20,402 nucleotides of DNA from a virus. How positions within the stretch are numbered: position 1 is the stretch's first letter; each line of letters starts with the position of its first letter. Where the stretch lies: positions 1 to 20,402 of the IMG/VR virus record IMGVR_UViG_3300027375_000070; one strand, 5' to 3'. Below the pieces are notes generated by a model, which saw only the letters and a list, made by a program, of their open reading frames with translations, searched no databases and was not told the DNA's origin. This document shows, one piece after another, positions 1 through 19,834 of this stretch. The position numbers were made by a program, and so were the translations under genes.

Positions 1-681
1 CTTAGATGATTGCATCTTAATATTATCGAAGAACTCTTGCTTTACACTACTATTATGGAATAGACCATGTACAGCAGATGTTTGCGTCAGCGATGAATGA
101 GCCATTACACCACGGTTATCCATACAGCCATGAGTAGCTTCAATATAGACAGCAACATTCTCTGTATCTGTTTCTTTCATGATCACCTTAGCGATCTGGT
201 TGACTAGTTCCTCTTGTAGCTGGCCACGACGTGCACACCACTGAGCAAGACGAACATACTTTGATAGACCAATTACTCGGCCAGTAGGAATGATGCCGAT
301 ATAGCAAACACCCTTGACAGGTTGGTGGTGATGACTACACATAGAGCGTAACTCAGCGCGAACAACCAACATACCTTCAAACCGACCTTCACCCTCATTA
401 GGGAATGAAGTCACGTTTGGCTTCTTATCATATCGACCAGACATTAACTCATAAACATACATCTTAGCTAAACGCTTAGCTGTATCCATCGAGTTAGGAT
501 CATTCTCTGTATCGATGACAAGAGACTCTAATACACCTTGAAACTTACCCTTCACCTCATCGACTAACTGTGAAAGCTCTTCTTCTTTAATGAAATCGGA
601 TATATTATCAGATGCCTTGAATTCCGCTTTCGCTTCCTTCAGTCGTAACTTGATTTTGTCCGATATCGCTGTGTAATTCAT
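1..681 (-). CDS. folE: GTP cyclohydrolase I (FolE), 3' end cut by window edge
   Basis: It converts GTP to 7,8-dihydroneopterin triphosphate, the entry step of folate and of 7-deazaguanine (preQ0/queuosine) synthesis. The frame is open from the ATG at 681 to base 1 (227 codons) with no stop, so the C-terminus runs off the left edge; compared with known FolE only a short tail should be missing. The zinc ligands are visible as C115 and H118 (in CSHHH) and C186 (in THGCMDNRG), which matches the E. coli spacing of C110, H113 and C181. The start is supported by GAGGTG four bases upstream, although the first codons overlap the end of the preceding gene by about 74 bases. With queD and queE about 8 kb upstream, the likely role is 7-deazaguanine supply. 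I am sure of the family; pathway use is inferred. Confidence 0.95.
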   Translation of the reverse strand, partial: MNYTAISDKIKLRLKEAKAEFKASDNISDFIKEEELSQLVDEVKGKFQGVLESLVIDTENDPNSMDTAKRLAKMYVYELMSGRYDKKPNVTSFPNEGEGRFEGMLVVRAELRSMCSHHHQPVKGVCYIGIIPTGRVIGLSKYVRLAQWCARRGQLQEELVNQIAKVIMKETDTENVAVYIEATHGCMDNRGVMAHSSLTQTSAVHGLFHNSSVKQEFFDNIKMQSSK

Positions 682-1003
682 CAATCACCTCATCAATTAA
701 TACTATCTCACTAGCCATGTAGCTAATAGGATAGGTTGTTGCAATTTTAAAATAACTATCTTTTAGATCTTGTGGGATACTACGATCACGATGGAAATAA
801 TAATCTAATAGCTTTTGATTGATCATAGTAGGTACAGAGACATACAATGGATCAAGATTGAATCGAAGACTATCAGGCCATCTTCCTGTGAGTTTGAACT
901 CAAGAAAGGCAGTTCTGTGCTTCTTATTACTCGGGTTAAAATCAACATAGTCATACTGCTTGTTGATGAACCCACCTGTAGTAAGCGGGTTAGTTTGCAG
1001 CAT
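608..1003 (-). CDS. Conserved phage-type hypothetical protein, 131 aa
   Basis: I cannot assign a function. The protein is soluble-looking with no signal peptide. It carries an FLEFKLTGRWP segment near residues 34-44 followed by aromatic and basic residues, a style I associate with short uncharacterised proteins of marine T4-like phages. The start at 1003 has GGAG nine bases upstream. The ORF begins inside the last codons of the small membrane gene before it (14-base overlap), and its 3' end overlaps folE by about 74 bases, so translation of the three genes is probably coupled. The long overlap with folE is unusual and leaves some doubt about where this protein ends functionally. Confidence 0.7.
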   Translation of the reverse strand: MLQTNPLTTGGFINKQYDYVDFNPSNKKHRTAFLEFKLTGRWPDSLRFNLDPLYVSVPTMINQKLLDYYFHRDRSIPQDLKDSYFKIATTYPISYMASEIVLIDEVIDELHSDIGQNQVTTEGSESGIQGI

Positions 1004-1112
1004 TGATCACAGCTCCGTGAACTAAGTCAACAGTCTTGCCAAATACAACTTTCGTGGTATCCGGATAGATTACAGCAAGTGTAACTATTACTCCAAGAAT
1101 GAAACCCTTCAT
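990..1112 (-). CDS. Small single-span membrane protein, 40 aa
   Basis: The upstream-extended ORF could start at 1178, but the ATG at 1112 (MKGFILGVIVTLAV) is preferred. It has GAGG eight bases upstream, and the larger frame would run back across a promoter (-10 at 1147-1152). Residues 3-16 are a hydrophobic stretch fitting one transmembrane helix or an uncleaved signal, and the rest (TTKVVFGKTVDLVHGAV) is mildly amphipathic. It is the first gene of the unit small protein/131-aa protein/folE, with a sigma70 promoter directly upstream. Function unknown. Confidence 0.65.
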   Translation of the reverse strand: MKGFILGVIVTLAVIYPDTTKVVFGKTVDLVHGAVINAAN

Positions 1113-1146
1113 AATATAAACCTCACAAATAATTAACGGTATAATG

Positions 1147-1175
1147 ATTCTACATTGTTCAACATATAAAGTCAA
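1147..1175 (-). promoter_or_regulatory. Sigma70-type promoter for the folE unit
   Basis: Read on the minus strand, TTGACT (1170-1175) and TAGAAT (1147-1152) are separated by exactly 17 bases. The -35 box begins nine bases after the encoded CCA of tRNA-Gly, and the next gene starts at 1112. It is one of a family of similar promoters in this window. Confidence 0.7.
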
Positions 1176-1183
1176 CATCTAAC

Positions 1184-1259
1184 TGGAGCGGGCGACCAGG
1201 TTCGAACTGGCGACATTTAGCTTGGAAGGCTAACGCTCTACCAACTGAGCTACACCCGC
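1184..1259 (-). tRNA. tRNA-Gly(TCC)
   Basis: A complete cloverleaf of 76 bases with encoded CCA. The acceptor GCGGGTG pairs with CGCCCGC (one G-U), the anticodon loop is CTTCCAA with anticodon TCC, the T-loop is TTCGAAC and the discriminator is T. It reads GGA/GGG, codons favoured by a low-GC phage. Its 5' half is also the end of an overlapping reading frame (1230-1418). Confidence 0.95.
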
Positions 1260-1418
1260 GTCATCATCAAAATCATAGTATTCACGTGCCATTATAACTT
1301 GGTCATCAAACTTTTCTTGCTCTGTCTTTTTCTTAGTGCCAAAAATACTATTCCAATTTTCTTCGTACTTTTTTAGATCAGTGGGTCTTTGCTTAGACCC
1401 TTTACCACCATCTGACAT
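1230..1418 (-). CDS. Small conserved phage protein running into tRNA-Gly, 62 aa
   Basis: A charged, hydrophilic protein starting MSDGGKGSKQRP, a beginning I recognise from unnamed small proteins in many phages; no function is known to me. TTGGAG lies five bases upstream of the ATG at 1418, a strong ribosome binding site. The coding frame continues 30 bases into tRNA-Gly, so the last residues (about AGVAQLVER) are dictated by the tRNA sequence. Either the C-terminus was extended after loss of an original stop codon next to the tRNA, or the tRNA was inserted there. The gene follows tRNA-Arg by 13 bases. Confidence 0.7.
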   Translation of the reverse strand: MSDGGKGSKQRPTDLKKYEENWNSIFGTKKKTEQEKFDDQVIMAREYYDFDDDAGVAQLVER

Positions 1419-1431
1419 AATAACTCCAATT

Positions 1432-1506
1432 TGGTCCGGCGTGACAGAATCGAACTGCCGTTTAGAAGGTAGAAGCTTCCTGTATTTTCCACTATACGAA
1501 CGCCAG
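1432..1506 (-). tRNA. tRNA-Arg(TCT)
   Basis: 75 bases with encoded CCA. The acceptor CTGGCGT pairs with ACGCCGG (one G-U at position 2-71), the anticodon stem is GGAAG/CTTCT, the loop CTTCTAC gives anticodon TCT, and the T-loop is TTCGATT. It decodes AGA/AGG, rare in many hosts but common in AT-rich phage genes. Confidence 0.93.
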
Positions 1507-1511
1507 GTATT

Positions 1512-1691
1512 TTAAACTTCTTTACCGTGCTTGTCCACTCTCACTACTTTCTGTGGTTTAGCATTAACTAAATCCATACCAACATATATAATCCCATCAT
1601 CAAGAGAGATTTTAAACTCATCTATCTCTCTAAAGTGATTGTATACTTCAATAAGAGTTTTAATCTGTTTACGGTTCAATGTGATTTTCAT
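1512..1691 (-). CDS. Hypothetical protein, 59 aa
   Basis: A short gene between the desaturase and tRNA-Arg. It begins MKITLNRKQIKTL and ends in VDKHGKEV, with mixed charged and hydrophobic residues and no membrane segment. The ATG is three bases after the desaturase stop codon, so translation is probably coupled; the upstream AAAAAG is only a weak ribosome binding site. It ends five bases before tRNA-Arg. I do not recognise the family; coding is supported by position, protein-like composition and tight packing. Confidence 0.65.
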   Translation of the reverse strand: MKITLNRKQIKTLIEVYNHFREIDEFKISLDDGIIYVGMDLVNAKPQKVVRVDKHGKEV

Positions 1692-1694
1692 AAT

Positions 1695-2477
1695 TTACTT
1701 TTTGATTAATCGGATAAACCACCCCATTGGATCCAATTCCCACCACTTCTCCTGTGTTGTCCATTTACCTGGATTGTTGTGATGGTTGTTATGCCACCCA
1801 TCACCCATTGTTGCAATACTTGCTATCCAGGAGTTCCTTGATGCGTCTCTTGTATTGTATGTTCTATATCCATGCAGGTGAGCCACAACAATAATAAATG
1901 ACACAGAGTGGAGAGTAAAGCATGCAGGAATACAATACACAAACACAGCTAGCAAAGGATCAATTGCTGCAAGAGAAACTACTGTAAATAATAGAATCTT
2001 ATAGTAATGTTTATGTATGAACAAATGGAAAGGATCACGAATCATATGTACAACATACTTTGGTGAAAAGTGATCTATATTCCAAAAATTAAACCAGCCT
2101 TTGAAAATCAACTTCCAACTAAATTTAAGCTCTTCTCCAGGACCACGTCCTATATAAGGGCTATGTGGGTCTAATTGTTTGTCAGAATTAGCATGGTGAA
2201 GTCGGTGAACGCCAACCCATGTGATTGATGATCCCATTGTAGCATGTAAACCAAGGATTGATAACAACCCTTCCCAGAACCTATTAGTTTTATATGATTG
2301 GTGGGATAATAATCTATGAAACCCAATACCAATACCAAACGTCCCAAAAAGTAATGAGAATATACCACTAATGTATAACCAACCCCACTCGTGAGTTGTG
2401 AACACATAGTATAGACCAAACACCAACATGGCGTGATTAAATATTTGAAACAGTTTTAGCTTGATATATAGATTCAT
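1695..2477 (-). CDS. Membrane fatty-acid (delta-9-type) desaturase
   Basis: A di-iron integral membrane desaturase of 260 aa, predicted to introduce a cis double bond into an acyl chain of acyl-CoA or membrane lipid. All three histidine boxes are intact: HRLLSH (54-59), HRLHH (91-95) and the third box in GDGWHNNHH (H229, H232, H233). Hydrophobic membrane segments lie around residues 12-50 and 160-200. The length is that of bacterial and cyanophage enzymes, shorter than animal stearoyl-CoA desaturases. The start at 2477 has GGAG five bases upstream, and a sigma70-type promoter at 2513-2541 lies between it and tRNA-Thr. This looks like a host-derived metabolic gene that could change membrane fluidity during infection; substrate and physiological role are inferred. 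Confidence 0.93.
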   Translation of the reverse strand: MNLYIKLKLFQIFNHAMLVFGLYYVFTTHEWGWLYISGIFSLLFGTFGIGIGFHRLLSHQSYKTNRFWEGLLSILGLHATMGSSITWVGVHRLHHANSDKQLDPHSPYIGRGPGEELKFSWKLIFKGWFNFWNIDHFSPKYVVHMIRDPFHLFIHKHYYKILLFTVVSLAAIDPLLAVFVYCIPACFTLHSVSFIIVVAHLHGYRTYNTRDASRNSWIASIATMGDGWHNNHHNNPGKWTTQEKWWELDPMGWFIRLIKK

Positions 2478-2512
2478 CTTATCTCCGAATTAGGTTGCAT
2501 ACTATTTGTCTC

Positions 2513-2541
2513 ATTATACACCGTATGCAAGGGTGAGTCAT
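2513..2541 (-). promoter_or_regulatory. Sigma70-type promoter for the desaturase
   Basis: ATGACT (2536-2541) and a perfect TATAAT (2513-2518) with a 17-base spacer, minus strand. The -35 box directly abuts the CCA end of tRNA-Thr, so transcription of the desaturase can be independent of the tRNA upstream. Confidence 0.7.
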
Positions 2542-2615
2542 TGGTGCCCCTTGACAGAATCGAACTGCCAATTGATGATTACAAATCAACTGTTATACCA
2601 TTTAACTAAAAGGGC
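2542..2615 (-). tRNA. tRNA-Thr(TGT)
   Basis: 74 bases with encoded CCA. The acceptor GCCCTTT pairs with AAGGGGC, the loop TTTGTAA gives anticodon TGT, and the T-arm is GGCAG/CTGTC with TTCGATT. The anticodon stem GTTGA/TCATC has one T-T mismatch (28-42). It reads ACA. The first base coincides with the last base of the stop codon of the DD-peptidase gene. Confidence 0.88.
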
Positions 2616-3343
2616 TACAGATTATCAATAATGTGTCTTGATACTTTCTGAACAGATTTAGTGTTGTGCTCACCAAGTATCACAATAACAAAACCCTCTC
2701 CATGTTTACTTACAAACATTGCAAGACACTTACCAGCTGGATTAGTAAACCCAGTCTTACTTATTTCGATTTCTTTGTAGTCTTTTAGTAGATTAATATT
2801 AGTATTATTAACAGTTGAAAATCTATATCTCTTCTTCTTCAACGGCTCTACAATTGTATAACTAGCTGTTGATGATATCTCTCTCATCTTATTATACAAA
2901 TGAGCATGACGAATCAGTAAAGTTAAATCTCTTGCTGTACTCTGATTCTTTCTACTAAGACCAGATGGATCATCGAAGAATGTATCATTCATTCCAAGCT
3001 CAAATGCTTTAAGATTCATCTGGATGATAAAGTTATCTCTACCACCGCGGTAACTTTTAGCTAGTGATTCTGCTGCTTGATTGTCACTCTTTACTAGCAT
3101 CAAATACAATAACTCTTCTCTTGTTCTCTTGGAACGACCGTATGGAATTTTCTCTATAAGAGAATCACTTCCAGTAACGACAATGAGAGCAGTCATTAAC
3201 TTAGTTACACTTGCAATTGGTCTTACCAGATCAGATGCATACTCTGTAACAACTTCCTCCTTAGTTACATTGTACACATACTGTGTTGCAGCTATACTCG
3301 ATTGACAAATCAAAAGAGCTAAGATTAAAACAAATTGTTTCAT
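2615..3343 (-). CDS. Secreted D-Ala-D-Ala carboxypeptidase/endopeptidase (peptidase S11)
   Basis: A serine DD-peptidase acting on peptidoglycan stem peptides in the periplasm. The active-site motifs are complete: S45-x-x-K48 (SVTK), S86-D87-N88 and K196-T197-G198. A short signal peptide (MKQFVLILALLIC, with SSIAA before the likely cleavage near residue 19) directs export. At 242 aa it contains only the catalytic domain and lacks the C-terminal domain and membrane anchor of PBP5/PBP6, so it resembles PBP7-type endopeptidases. A longer frame begins at 3388, but the ATG at 3343 is chosen because it gives the signal peptide, has AAAGG upstream and avoids starting inside tRNA-Asp. Possible roles are wall remodelling during infection or assisting lysis; these are inferred. 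Confidence 0.92.
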   Translation of the reverse strand: MKQFVLILALLICQSSIAATQYVYNVTKEEVVTEYASDLVRPIASVTKLMTALIVVTGSDSLIEKIPYGRSKRTREELLYLMLVKSDNQAAESLAKSYRGGRDNFIIQMNLKAFELGMNDTFFDDPSGLSRKNQSTARDLTLLIRHAHLYNKMREISSTASYTIVEPLKKKRYRFSTVNNTNINLLKDYKEIEISKTGFTNPAGKCLAMFVSKHGEGFVIVILGEHNTKSVQKVSRHIIDNL

Positions 3344-3376
3344 CTTGACCTTTGTAGTTATAATCGAGTATTTAGT

Positions 3377-3451
3377 TGGCGGTCTCAACGAGAATTGAAC
3401 TCGTCCCTACGGCGTGACAGGCCATTATACTAACCAATATACTATGAGACC
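3377..3451 (-). tRNA. tRNA-Asp(GTC)
   Basis: 75 bases with encoded CCA. The acceptor GGTCTCA pairs perfectly with TGAGACC, the discriminator is G, the anticodon arm ATGGC/GCCGT encloses CTGTCAC (anticodon GTC), and the T-loop is TTCAATT. The last codons of the preceding membrane-protein gene overlap its 5' end by ten bases. Confidence 0.95.
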
Positions 3452-3690
3452 TTTTTTCTGTTTCTAATCTTTATTCCAATAAACGTACCAAAAAAAGCAC
3501 CTATGACTGCAGGTATCAATAACCAGTGATTAGCAGTATATTCGATAACTGCTATACTACCAACTAGCCATACAATAGCACCCCAAATACCAGCTTTCAC
3601 TGCTCTATTTTCATTTACAGATTTTATATAATACGTGTAAAAGATATCTACAAATGTTACAGCTAAGAAAGTAAACACATAAGACCACAT
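3442..3690 (-). CDS. Small multi-span membrane protein, 82 aa
   Basis: There are three hydrophobic stretches at about residues 3-22, 32-50 and 55-74, the last followed by the basic tail KIRNRKKVS, so three membrane passes are likely. The start at 3690 has AAGGAG upstream. The 3' end overlaps tRNA-Asp by ten bases. I do not recognise a family with confidence; small VDIFYT/YIKSV-type membrane proteins occur in marine phages without assigned function. It could be membrane-active (holin-like in size), but nothing specific supports that. Confidence 0.72.
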   Translation of the reverse strand: MWSYVFTFLAVTFVDIFYTYYIKSVNENRAVKAGIWGAIVWLVGSIAVIEYTANHWLLIPAVIGAFFGTFIGIKIRNRKKVS

Positions 3691-3711
3691 ACTATCTCCT
3701 TGAATATAGGG

Positions 3712-3782
3712 CAGGGGATATAAGAATCGAACTTATGATAACGGAATCAAAATCCGCTGTGATACCTCTTCACCAATCCCCA
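3712..3782 (-). tRNA. tRNA-Gln(TTG), no encoded CCA
   Basis: 71 bases ending at discriminator G. Acceptor pairs 2-7 are perfect (GGGGAT/ATCCCC) while position 1-72 is T-T, fitting the weak first pair of glutamine tRNAs. The anticodon arm GCGGA/TCCGT encloses TTTTGAT (anticodon TTG), and the T-loop is TTCGATT. The genome continues with CCC rather than CCA, so the terminal A must be added after transcription. Confidence 0.88.
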
Positions 3783-3899
3783 ACCGAACCATATAGAAAC
3801 ATACTAATGAACCAGTCTGACGCAGCACTACGCTTGGCAGATCGTTTCCAATCTGTTTCTCGCTTTTCTAGGTAGTCTGTATGTTCAGAATTCCGCAGT
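3770..3899 (-). pseudogene. Possible start-less gene remnant ahead of tRNA-Gln
   Basis: The space between tRNA-Glu and tRNA-Gln (about 160 bases) holds an open frame of 42 codons rich in charged residues (YLEKRETDWKRSAKRS), ending inside tRNA-Gln. It looks protein-like but has no usable ATG/GTG/TTG start before a TGA at 3902-3904, and the only internal ATG leaves about ten residues. It may be the 3' part of a decayed small gene, or chance. No other feature is seen in this gap. Confidence 0.3.
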
Positions 3900-3942
3900 C
3901 CTCAATACAATTGCTTGCAAGGGCAATTAATATGTTTTTATA

Positions 3943-4017
3943 TGGCACACCGTAGGAGAATCGAACTCCTCTTACTGCCGTGAAAGGGCAATGTCCTAAC
4001 CGATAGACGAACGGTGC
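3943..4017 (-). tRNA. tRNA-Glu(TTC)
   Basis: 75 bases with encoded CCA. The acceptor GCACCGT pairs with ACGGTGT (G-T at 1-72), the anticodon arm TTGCC/GGCAG encloses CTTTCAC (anticodon TTC), and the T-loop is TTCGATT. A sigma70-type promoter lies just upstream (4035-4063). Confidence 0.93.
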
Positions 4018-4034
4018 ATCGATTCAACAATATA

Positions 4035-4063
4035 ATTATCTAACAATTACATAATTAAGTCAA
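4035..4063 (-). promoter_or_regulatory. Sigma70-type promoter for the tRNA island
   Basis: TTGACT (4058-4063) and GATAAT (4035-4040), 17-base spacer, minus strand. It sits between tRNA-Trp and tRNA-Glu, so tRNA-Glu would be the first product, with a leader of roughly ten bases. It shares an identical 16-base block over the -35 region with the promoter at 8616-8644. Confidence 0.72.
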
Positions 4064-4068
4064 CAGGT
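4053..4068 (-). repeat. 16-base block shared with 8634-8649
   Basis: The plus-strand sequence aattaagtcaacaggt occurs identically here and at 8634-8649. In both copies it spans the -35 box of a promoter placed directly after the preceding gene. Confidence 0.8.
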
Positions 4069-4141
4069 GGCCTCGGTGGAGAGAATCGAACTCCCGCAAG
4101 CAGATTTGGAGGCTGCCGTACTACCATTATACTACACCGAG
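4068..4141 (-). tRNA. tRNA-Trp(CCA)
   Basis: 74 bases with encoded CCA. The acceptor CTCGGTG pairs with CACCGAG, the discriminator is G, the loop CTCCAAA gives anticodon CCA, and the T-arm GGGAG/CTCTC with TTCGATT is typical of bacterial tRNA-Trp. The closing pair of the anticodon stem (31-39) is a C-T mismatch. It begins two bases after the metallophosphoesterase stop. Confidence 0.9.
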
Positions 4142-4143
4142 GA

Positions 4144-4713
4144 TTACTTCTTAAAACCAATAATACCACCTTCTTTTTCTATCTTCTTAAATACATCCTC
4201 AAGAAGGATAGGTCTAAAGTCCGTCTGCTCTACGCACACGCAGTGGTACATTGGATCAATAACCTTTTGATCCGGAAACCAGCGACTGGGAGATGGTTTC
4301 ATGATACGGTTAGAATGCAAATGACCGTGAATATTAACACCAAACCTATAGAGGTTGGATTCATGAACAGGAATGTGACTAAGTATAGTTCCATTCATTA
4401 CATGGTATCCTCGTATATCTCTAAAGTAGGGAGTGTAATCTTCTAGCTTAAAAATATCATGATTACCCTTGATAAGAACTTTGTCACCATTAAGTCTATC
4501 AAGTATTTTTAGAGCTTTCCTATTGATTACAACATCACCTAGGTGATATACTTTATCATTTGGTCTTACTGTTTCATTCCAACGCTTGACCATCTCTTCA
4601 TCCATCTCTTCTGGACTATCCCATGGTCTTAGCTTTGTTCCATCATCTCTAAGGAATTTACATACGCCAGCATGACCAAAGTGCGTATCGCTTACTAGAA
4701 ATGTTGCTGGCAT
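4144..4713 (-). CDS. Calcineurin-like metallophosphoesterase
   Basis: A 189-aa two-metal phosphoesterase with the full motif series: DTHFGH (9-14), GDVV, GNHD, HIPVH and GHLH in the C-terminal half. Such small stand-alone enzymes can hydrolyse phosphodiesters or phosphomonoesters of nucleotides or nucleic acids; the substrate cannot be read here. It is distinct from the gp47 nuclease further right, which has the same fold plus extra domains. The start at 4713 has AAAGGAG six bases upstream. It is probably co-transcribed with the 49-aa gene in front of it, downstream of a terminator-like hairpin. tRNA-Trp follows directly. Confidence 0.9.
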   Translation of the reverse strand: MPATFLVSDTHFGHAGVCKFLRDDGTKLRPWDSPEEMDEEMVKRWNETVRPNDKVYHLGDVVINRKALKILDRLNGDKVLIKGNHDIFKLEDYTPYFRDIRGYHVMNGTILSHIPVHESNLYRFGVNIHGHLHSNRIMKPSPSRWFPDQKVIDPMYHCVCVEQTDFRPILLEDVFKKIEKEGGIIGFKK

Positions 4714-4727
4714 ATGTTACTCCTTTC

Positions 4728-4877
4728 TTAATCTTTATACTTTCTAAACTTCCTAACTAACTTCAACAGGTAACACTTTAGACCTCTGAACGAAGGATAC
4801 CAATAAAGAACAACATTGTAACTGACTTCTTTTGGTATTGATCCGTATGCTTTTTCTAGTGTTTCTTTTGTTGTCAT
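4728..4877 (-). CDS. Hypothetical protein, 49 aa
   Basis: A short basic protein (MTTKETLEKAYG at the start, VRKFRKYKD at the end) with AGGTG seven bases upstream of its ATG. It ends 15 bases before the metallophosphoesterase ATG, so the two form a pair. Its ribosome binding site directly follows the T-tract of the terminator at 4889-4920, leaving no room for a promoter in between. Function unknown. Confidence 0.6.
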   Translation of the reverse strand: MTTKETLEKAYGSIPKEVSYNVVLYWYPSFRGLKCYLLKLVRKFRKYKD

Positions 4878-4888
4878 TTTTATCACCT

Positions 4889-4920
4889 AAAAAAAAAGAC
4901 CCGAGGTACGAGCTCGGGTC
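4889..4920 (-). terminator. Rho-independent terminator after the oxygenase operon
   Basis: On the minus strand an 8-bp stem (GACCCGAG/CTCGGGTC) with a 7-base loop is followed by nine T residues. It lies 20 bases after the stop codon of the oxygenase at 4940. The opposite strand has no T-run, so it is directional. Confidence 0.92.
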
Positions 4921-4939
4921 CTCTTGAGCTTGTTTATTT

Positions 4940-5449
4940 TTATAATCTTTTTAAATTACCTGCAATGCTTATTCTAGTTTCATTACCCATATTCTTTGAT
5001 ACTCTATGCTTTAACCATCCTGGAAAAACAAGTAGCTCACCTTCTCTAGGTTTCATTGCTGAATTTAAATTCTGAATTTCAAATACTATATCACCAGATC
5101 CTTTTGGAACCTTCACGTAATATGCAAAAGACATATCATGATCACAATGATCATGTGTGTTAGAACTCTCTAATGGTCTATGTATATGGGACCAGTGGCC
5201 AACCATACGATAACCATTATTTAGAAAATGTTGAGTCAAGATCAGCAAAAAGTTATGACCAACAGTCCCTGGTTCAGGACTAAATATCGTATCTTCAAAA
5301 AGAGAACCGTTAGGATCCTCATATAACCTTTCATGAGATTCCATTACTTGTGTTGCTATAGCGGCATTATCAATACCATCAAAAAACGCCTGAGTGACGA
5401 ATATATCGAATACTGTAACTTCAATGTTATGGCTTACTGTCGGAGTCAT
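4940..5449 (-). CDS. Putative 2-oxoglutarate/Fe(II)-dependent oxygenase, PF13759-like
   Basis: A 169-aa cupin-fold protein resembling the short phage 2OG-Fe(II) oxygenases. The metal-binding HxD is probably within THDHCDHD (about H101/D103), with the distal histidine in WLKHR (H148) and a candidate 2-oxoglutarate-binding arginine at R159. The preceding GELLVFPGWLKH is the typical strand before the distal histidine. Its substrate could be a protein, nucleic acid or small metabolite. Its ATG overlaps the stop of the other oxygenase (ATGA), so both are made together. Family fit is good, but the exact iron ligands are uncertain because several histidines cluster. Confidence 0.82.
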   Translation of the reverse strand: MTPTVSHNIEVTVFDIFVTQAFFDGIDNAAIATQVMESHERLYEDPNGSLFEDTIFSPEPGTVGHNFLLILTQHFLNNGYRMVGHWSHIHRPLESSNTHDHCDHDMSFAYYVKVPKGSGDIVFEIQNLNSAMKPREGELLVFPGWLKHRVSKNMGNETRISIAGNLKRL

Positions 5450-6039
5450 TTAATTGTAAAGTTATAGTTAATATTAATTCTTACATCTTCTCTTGTTGGT
5501 CTTGTACTACTGTGATATCTGTTACCGTTGAATAGTACGAACCTATTTTCAACAGAATGAACTACATCCTTGATAGTGAATGTACTACCTTCAATATGAT
5601 CCACATCATTTACATCAATCTGCGGATCAAATACCTCGTTAAATAATAACGTTGGACTATCGTAGTTAGTTGTTATATATAGTATCCCTATTTTTGAATC
5701 ACGGTTATCATCATCAATATGTGGATGATGTACCATTGTTTCATGGTTCCTTGTGTACAAGTTTACTCTGATTCTATGTAGTTCAAGTAACTCATAACCA
5801 AAAGATGATAGTGAACTGTTTAGTGCTTGTAGACACATATTATAGAATAATCCATATGCATTATGAGGCCTATCAATATCATATAGTGTGTTATTGAAGC
5901 TAAAGTTGTTCTCCATCAACTCACTACAAGATAAAGCAGTGTTTTTTGTGTAAGCCCATGGAAATATACCTGATGATAACCCAATTTGTAACTCAGTAAA
6001 TTGGGTGTTATCAAGTATATTATCTTTTAGTTCAATCAT
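5446..6039 (-). CDS. Putative 2-oxoglutarate/Fe(II)-dependent oxygenase, prolyl-hydroxylase-like
   Basis: A 197-aa protein with the facial triad H107-x-D109 (HPHIDD) and H176 (NRYHSS), followed by R187 for 2-oxoglutarate. The surrounding GILYITT and RFVLFNGNRYHS strands match the double-stranded beta-helix of the P4H-like superfamily. It differs clearly in sequence from the neighbouring oxygenase, so the pair is not a recent tandem duplication. Its start shares bases with the stop of the lipoprotein gene (TAATG). The target is unknown. Confidence 0.85.
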   Translation of the reverse strand: MIELKDNILDNTQFTELQIGLSSGIFPWAYTKNTALSCSELMENNFSFNNTLYDIDRPHNAYGLFYNMCLQALNSSLSSFGYELLELHRIRVNLYTRNHETMVHHPHIDDDNRDSKIGILYITTNYDSPTLLFNEVFDPQIDVNDVDHIEGSTFTIKDVVHSVENRFVLFNGNRYHSSTRPTREDVRININYNFTIK

Positions 6040-9839: not shown

Positions 9840-10690
9840 TAAGTGCCCCATGCGTTACGCCAGATATCAACTTGAAGACGTGGACTATATCTCCAACCCT
9901 TCTTCATAGCCATCTCAGCTACTGCTTGATAATTGGTAAAGTATAGATCAGCTGTACCGCCAACTGGCATCAGATATACTTCACCTCTGAGACCGTTATC
10001 TCTATACGCTTGAACAGCTTTCTCTATCTCGTACATATCTGTTTCTTTGTCAACGACAAATTTAAGATATACCTCACCGTATGCTTCATACTCGGCAACA
10101 ATCTTTGGTTTGATAGCATCATCCCATGATTCACCAGATGGACTCAACTTAGCACTAACAGAGAATATAACTTCTGTATTGCCTTTGTTCTTTGTTCCAT
10201 AGTTATACAGGTACATCTTGAAGTCCTCAGTCAACTGCTGAGTACCATTAGTCTCAAAAGTTAATGACTTCAGACTTATCATACTTTCATTCGATAGAAG
10301 ATCCTCATATGATCTTTGCCATCCAAGTAGTGGCTCACCACCAGTAATGATAAGATGTTCATTGATCCATTTCTTGTTAGGGAGCATACCCAGGATAGAA
10401 TTAACTATACTATCTGTCTCGATAACAGGGGATAGATGCTTGAATCTAGGATCCCAGCTAGCATATGAGTCACAGCCAGTATTAACAAGTGGAAGGCTAT
10501 TATACGTTTTATACTGCTGGATACTATTAGCAATGACATCACGCTCTACCGATACCATTCCATTCTTCATACCAAACCCACTACAGGTAAAGTTACATCC
10601 AAAAGTACGAAGGAATACACTTGGTACTCCAACATACTTACCCTCACCTTGTAAGCTATAGAATAGCTCAGCTACTTTAATTTTGCTCAT
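9839..10690 (-). CDS. queE: 7-carboxy-7-deazaguanine synthase (QueE), phage variant
   Basis: A radical SAM enzyme of 283 aa making 7-carboxy-7-deazaguanine from 6-carboxytetrahydropterin. The N-terminal FYSLQGEG and TGGEP (about 116-120) are typical QueE signatures. The 4Fe-4S cluster cysteines are C32 and C36 (GCNFTC), but the third is not two residues later: the next is C73 in NTGCDSYASWD, giving CX3C-X36-C. I recall this GCDSY arrangement in other phage QueE proteins, so it is an insertion variant rather than a dead enzyme. The ATG at 10690 overlaps the end of the deformylase gene by 14 bases. Confidence 0.92.
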   Translation of the reverse strand: MSKIKVAELFYSLQGEGKYVGVPSVFLRTFGCNFTCSGFGMKNGMVSVERDVIANSIQQYKTYNSLPLVNTGCDSYASWDPRFKHLSPVIETDSIVNSILGMLPNKKWINEHLIITGGEPLLGWQRSYEDLLSNESMISLKSLTFETNGTQQLTEDFKMYLYNYGTKNKGNTEVIFSVSAKLSPSGESWDDAIKPKIVAEYEAYGEVYLKFVVDKETDMYEIEKAVQAYRDNGLRGEVYLMPVGGTADLYFTNYQAVAEMAMKKGWRYSPRLQVDIWRNAWGT

Positions 10691-19826: not shown

Positions 19827-19834
19827 TATTTATA
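19827..19834 (-). promoter_or_regulatory. Perfect T4-type late promoter (TATAAATA) for gp22
   Basis: Exact match to the gp55-dependent late consensus, 29 bases before the gp22 ATG in the 46-base gap after gp21. Confidence 0.88.

Follow-up and report, generated by a model that had tools for sequence, protein, structure and literature searches.

A membrane fatty-acid desaturase gene in the tRNA island of a T4-like phage and its apparently phage-dominated lineage

The window, meaning the whole stretch of DNA that was analysed, is a virus contig of 20,402 bases that carries T4-like genes for gp23, a tail-tube protein, UvsW and an SbcD-like (gp47-type) nuclease, together with genes for QueD, QueE and FolE. 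Its gp23 and gp47 are 74.5% and 51.4% identical to their nearest matches, those of Stenotrophomonas phage DLP6, and the nearest match of its UvsW is from a Synechococcus phage (55.9%). The cysteines of QueE are spaced as CxxxCxxC; in the QueE-like radical SAM protein of the window (9842-10690, minus strand) Cys32 and Cys36 are followed by the next cysteine, Cys73 (in CDSYASW), 36 residues further on, and the cluster-binding loop seems to contain an insertion. Elsewhere in the window (4943-6039, minus strand), a 2OG-Fe(II) oxygenase-like gene (phrog_81) adjoins a phrog_274 match labelled endonuclease V.

A tRNA search located seven tRNA genes (Gly, Arg, Thr, Asp, Gln, Glu and Trp) on the minus strand between 1184 and 4141, and it is within this island, as the sequence-only reading had stated, that the desaturase gene lies (1695-2477, minus strand), with tRNA-Thr(tgt) (2542-2615, minus strand) directly upstream of its leader and tRNA-Arg (1432-1506, minus strand) on its other flank. 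The orf encodes 260 amino acids from an ATG start codon and is the sole desaturase match within the 20-kb record. Upstream of the desaturase gene, profile matches and a homologue on the contig of a related phage (L112) identify a PbpG-like S11 D-Ala-D-Ala peptidase (2615-3343, minus strand) with a signal-like N-terminus and the motifs SxxK, SDN and KTG, for which a cell-wall or lysis role is possible.

The leader of the desaturase gene contains a Shine-Dalgarno-like GGAG (2483-2486, minus strand), read from the sequence, five nucleotides ahead of the ATG and retained in L001, a sister contig described below. Further upstream is a candidate promoter (2513-2541, minus strand) in which ATGACT is separated by 17 nucleotides from an exact TATAAT (2513-2518), with 10 of 12 hexamer positions matched. 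The perfect TATAAT that had been read as the gene's own promoter is thus present, but the window holds 21 copies of TATAAT where shuffled sequences would lead one to expect 27.8, the hexamer being if anything rarer than by chance, and promoter-like sites within positions 1-5500 number 28 against 21.5 expected (standard deviation 4.7). L001 shares the TATAAT exactly, but its -35 hexamer lacks one base and has a substitution at another. Because the counts are at chance level and the -35 hexamer is not kept, a promoter of the desaturase's own is no more than a possibility. The sequence TATAAATA, which is taken here to be the T4 late-type promoter consensus, has one exact match in the whole window, at 19827, and none near the desaturase gene.

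The window gene encodes a membrane fatty-acid desaturase. Its product matches PF00487 (FA_desaturase) with 56.8 bits against a Pfam cut-off of 29.7, and a search of PDB sequences returned only SCD1-type chains (E-values 1.9e-15 and 4.4e-15). The NCBIfam DesA-family model scores 63.8 bits, far under its cut-off of 400 bits, and in PHROGs the match is phrog_35201, a family without a name. Histidine boxes are found at residues 54-59 (HRLLSH), 91-95 (HRLHH) and 229-233 (HNNHH), in agreement with the family patterns HxxxxH, HxxHH and HxxHH, and a ninth histidine (H200) precedes a GYR-type segment in the alignment with SCD1. All nine metal-ligand histidines are therefore present, which bears out the completeness of the three boxes asserted from the sequence alone. 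An AlphaFold model computed from a 50-row alignment (mean pLDDT 94.7) has an SCD-like fold with long membrane-type helices. Foldseek matched this model to 4zyo, 6wf2 and two chains of 4ymk with TM scores of 0.72-0.77 by query length, and with E-values below 0.001 it found stearoyl-CoA desaturases only. The gene may be annotated as a membrane fatty-acid desaturase of the SCD/DesC type on the combined evidence of its orf, PF00487, the nine histidines, the PDB sequence match and the modelled fold.

The surroundings of the predicted active site depart from those of SCD1. The asparagine of the SCD1 metal site, which is presumably a water-mediated metal ligand, aligns with Ile196 of the window protein, so the metal site would differ in detail. 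Asparagine at this position was not taken as family-defining; it is present in 33 of 37 bacterial rows of the 91-row set described below but in only 26 of its 54 viral rows, and thus absent from 28 viral and four bacterial rows. Just ahead of the second box, the arginine and aspartate of SCD1, assumed here to be CoA contacts, are replaced by glycine and valine. Most of the bacterial rows, which are of mixed kinds, also lack the SCD1 arginine and aspartate. Among the rows shown in the alignment, a segment of the SHxGW type follows the second box in most bacterial proteins and is absent or altered in the phage proteins.

The histidines themselves are nearly invariant among viral homologues. Eight of the nine positions are occupied by histidine in every row of a 34-row viral alignment (H229 in 33 of 34) and in all 54 viral rows of the 91-row set (H229 in 50 of 54). 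A degenerate lineage with lost active residues, which the sequence-only reading had named as evidence that would count against it, was looked for; instead, the histidines are retained in the window protein and its viral relatives. The four viral rows in which His229 has become glutamine are all second copies that adjoin another desaturase gene. They comprise L010:2305-3058 and second copies in L117, L145 and L152, they form a clade of their own in the tree, and they are possibly inactive partners.

In the sister contig L001, whose desaturase is 97% identical to that of the window, the genes from the S11 peptidase gene through the desaturase gene to folE are arranged as in the window. The two desaturase genes differ at 49 nucleotides and eight amino acids over 260 codons (dN 0.014, dS 0.305, dN/dS 0.046), and the dN/dS of five neighbouring genes ranges from 0.007 to 0.113. 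The low ratio indicates that the desaturase gene is under purifying selection and is being maintained. With a full orf, a PF00487 score above cut-off, all nine histidines, an SCD fold in the model and this dN/dS, the claim of an intact desaturase at 1695-2477 is upheld, and the enzyme looks functional.

Relatives of the window protein were sought in viral, bacterial and plasmid sequences. A collection of 50,697 phage records gave three matches at an E-value of 10, one in Pelagibacter phage Mosig and the others in two records that bear the name 'Acinetobacter phage MD-2021a', and not one cyanophage record of the collection matched even at this threshold. The 'Acinetobacter phage MD-2021a' records were not counted as phage, the match in one of them (H1) being adjoined by trpB, trpC, btuB, baeS and baeR in DNA of bacterial appearance. 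CAKLQH020000002.1 (L185), which bears the name Acinetobacter phage MD-2021a and carries these trp, btuB and bae genes, looks like a bacterial chromosome, a caution for users of phage databases. In IMG/VR, a first scan found 30 loci and a profile scan found 239 confirmed stretches. Among the best 80 of these 239, L002 encodes an identical desaturase (100%), as L001 does a nearly identical one, the other relatives are about 42-55% identical to the window protein, and the closest outside its own species are on two phage contigs, L112 and L113 (55%).

Bacterial relatives are more distant. In a scan of 84,980 species, each represented by a single genome, and with Bacteroidota and Actinomycetota not specifically targeted, the best 80 of 582 confirmed matches are 29-39% identical to the window protein. 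The class of genome G001, which includes a cyanobacterium (G003), has matches in 288 of 291 genomes (36-37% for the best by E-value), and the phylum of Tardiphaga in 115 of 398 (32-37% for the best by E-value). In the class of Tardiphaga, 26 of 289 genomes match, one of them (G357) across most of the protein length with 41% identity; this relative, L207, is the best bacterial match in the test for a host gene, the others being mostly at or below 39%. It is located in a 1.7-Mb genome, on a contig of bacterial appearance, where its flanking genes, named by sequence reading, are glycosyltransferase-like and YajC-like. Among 72,556 plasmid records, 44 match, the best at about 34% identity.

A first tree was built of 107 rows drawn from 109 viral and 82 bacterial sequences plus the proteins of the window, of Mosig and of a mislabelled record, filtered at 70% identity and with a length floor of 190 amino acids; one branch (SH-aLRT 97) separates 59 viral rows from 48 others. 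A second tree of 91 rows omitted six rows on long branches (five viral, the sixth from the mislabelled record), took in further bacterial rows only when these were less than 65% identical to rows already present, and thinned the bacterial rows at 57%. In it a branch (100/99) divides 36 bacterial rows from L207 and 54 viral rows, the rows having been picked by similarity to the window gene, a selection that favours its kin. The window protein groups with those of L112 and L113 (100/91) within a set of ten viral rows (97/98), and L207 pairs with a phage row (98/91). A topology that unites all viral rows without L207 is not clearly rejected (p-AU 0.057), and L207 may be either a recipient or close to the donor. 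Kinship with cyanophages, the frame that the sequence-only reading had implied, was discarded: besides the lack of cyanophage matches at an E-value of 10, the 91-row tree does not group the gene with cyanobacterial desaturases but with phage contigs, apart from cyanobacterial and other bacterial enzymes. On these trees and identities, the lineage to which the gene belongs appears to be phage-dominated and old.

Many of the related phages carry more than one such gene. Two or more desaturase orfs are present in the fetched flanks of 37 of 103 viral loci, and two or more desaturase matches in 15 of 18 large records, which were picked because they hold such a locus. Five desaturase genes lie consecutively on one phage contig (L124:2397-6208), all five above the Pfam cut-off, and the 364,554-base record IMGVR_UViG_3300042350_002797 (L155) has six desaturase matches. 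The neighbourhoods are varied. By sequence reading, the L113 desaturase gene adjoins tail-fibre-like and endolysin-like reading frames. In Mosig the desaturase gene is located among genes for an aminotransferase, a MoaA-type protein, an Asp/Arg hydroxylase and an FMN reductase, ahead of the tail-fibre genes. L030:1435-7879 encodes an AMP-binding enzyme, a Trp_halogenase family protein and a ketoacyl synthase as well as two desaturases, in what looks like a small biosynthetic cluster. Plant-type ferredoxin (Fer2) was found in none of 20 phage records by a search that was positive in 12 of 14 control genomes.

The best reading of the locus is that of a host-membrane-remodelling desaturase of a phage-borne lineage. 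It is considered quite probable, from the sequence and the modelled fold together, that the window protein is an active membrane di-metal acyl desaturase of the SCD/DesC kind, belonging to a phage-dominated clade, that would raise the unsaturation of the host membrane during infection. It would be inserted into the host inner membrane as infection proceeds and would accept electrons from a ferredoxin, a rubredoxin or a cytochrome-type donor, which probably belongs to the host since none of the 20 phage records encodes a plant-type ferredoxin. With O2 it would introduce a cis double bond, most likely at position 9 judging from the fold only, into saturated C16/C18 acyl chains. These chains would probably be lipid-linked rather than CoA-linked, because glycine and valine take the place of the SCD1 arginine and aspartate beside the second box, a weak argument given that bacterial rows mostly lack both residues. 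Unsaturation of the host membrane would then rise while the phage replicates, assembles or lyses the cell.

Ile196 at the asparagine position and the absent or altered SHxGW-type segment of the phage rows shown count against this reading, as do several distant relatives located among biosynthetic-type rather than lipid genes. The latter raise the prospect that the protein is an active desaturase or related oxygenase of a substrate other than bulk membrane lipid, such as an acyl chain carried by a small molecule, by a glycolipid or by a surface structure, which would be modified together with other phage enzymes. The enzyme cassette of Mosig, the L030 genes and the altered asparagine position of the window protein itself would all fit such a role. 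However, relatives of the Mosig and L030 type share only about 26-33% of their residues with the window protein, and no such cassette was seen next to the desaturase genes of the window and L112, which stand among tRNA genes with an S11 peptidase gene nearby, so that another substrate is judged unlikely.

The tRNA island bears on a different possibility, that of a host gene captured recently and either weakly selected or carried along passively at a hot spot formed by tRNA genes, and the 41% relative on a bacterial-looking contig of one alphaproteobacterial genome might be taken in its favour. Yet the dN/dS is that of a constrained gene, the phage relatives at 42-55% are closer than the bacterial ones, mostly at or below 39% among the best matches examined, and the gene falls within the phage clade of the 91-row tree. 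Moreover, L112, a contig that has 16 tRNA genes and the S11 peptidase homologue, likewise holds its 55% identical desaturase gene within a tRNA island, which suggests long residence rather than recent capture. Recent acquisition, which the sequence-only reading had implied by calling the island a common place for acquired genes, is accordingly regarded as highly improbable. Even less probable is a catalytically dead membrane protein with another role, as a scaffold or a partner of another desaturase. The His229Gln second copies that adjoin another desaturase gene would speak in its favour, but the window protein retains all nine histidines and has no second desaturase match beside it in the record.

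If the preferred reading of an active membrane-remodelling enzyme is correct, a T4-like phage whose desaturase has no cyanophage kinship joins the viruses that are able to reset the unsaturation of host membranes, and its desaturase is a defined, conserved protein for testing. A bolder conjecture, which is entertained with more doubt than belief, is that phages own an old and diversified desaturase family, with as many as five or six paralogues arrayed in one genome and with changed metal-site surroundings, whose members would differ in the double bond that they introduce or in the carrier of the chain; the family would then be a lipid-tailoring kit of the phages and not a loan from their hosts, and a copy of the lineage may be present in at least one bacterium. 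The phage-dominated lineage and its multicopy arrays make the gain that phages derive from lipid unsaturation a testable question.

The window protein resembles mammalian SCD1 (4ymk, 4zyo, 6wf2) in fold and in its nine histidines, but differs from it in having 22-23% sequence identity, Ile196 at the asparagine position and different residues beside the second box. It belongs to the same family as the enzymes of Cyanobacteria, Planctomycetota and Acidobacteriota, for which the label DesC-like is assumed here, has the same histidines and is up to about 39% identical to them; in contrast to the window protein, these enzymes are on the other side of the tree (100/99), mostly possess the SHxGW-type segment in the rows shown, and have the asparagine in 33 of 37 rows. 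Lipid desaturases of cyanophages, reportedly described by Roitman et al. in 2018, are likewise membrane desaturases borne by phages, but the window gene has no cyanophage match in the phage collection at an E-value of 10 and stands apart from cyanobacterial enzymes in the 91-row tree.

Closer parallels are found in other viruses. The published description of desaturases (vFADs) in phages of Arctic brine and sea ice covers 12 genes in four populations, with two phages having five copies each, and reports purifying selection and two clades, A and C, in which microbial members are absent (PMC7300359). According to a further article, two of the Arctic vFAD phages are predicted to infect Pseudomonas, and in situ transcription of the Arctic phage desaturases is low (PMC10405475). 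Judged by these descriptions, the window gene resembles the Arctic vFADs in being phage-borne and SCD-like with three histidine boxes and under purifying selection, and differs from the five-copy phages in being a single copy in the tRNA island of a T4-like phage. Other articles mention desaturases in viruses of Lake Baikal (PMC7678222) and on a pelagiphage-like scaffold (PMC11480375), and an SCD-type desaturase together with fabF in freshwater pelagimyophages (PMC7029224). The last-named phages have non-cyanobacterial hosts and resemble the window phage in being myophages with a stearoyl-CoA-type desaturase, but no fabF-like gene was noted near the window desaturase gene. Among the articles searched, none treated fatty acid desaturase and jumbo phage together. 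Since phage desaturases, phage-only clades and five-copy phages have been published, the kind is already known and the window gene is a further member of it, which makes the find a fairly ordinary one, if well supported; of more interest are the breadth of the lineage on the phage side and its arrays, though these too were foreshadowed in the literature.
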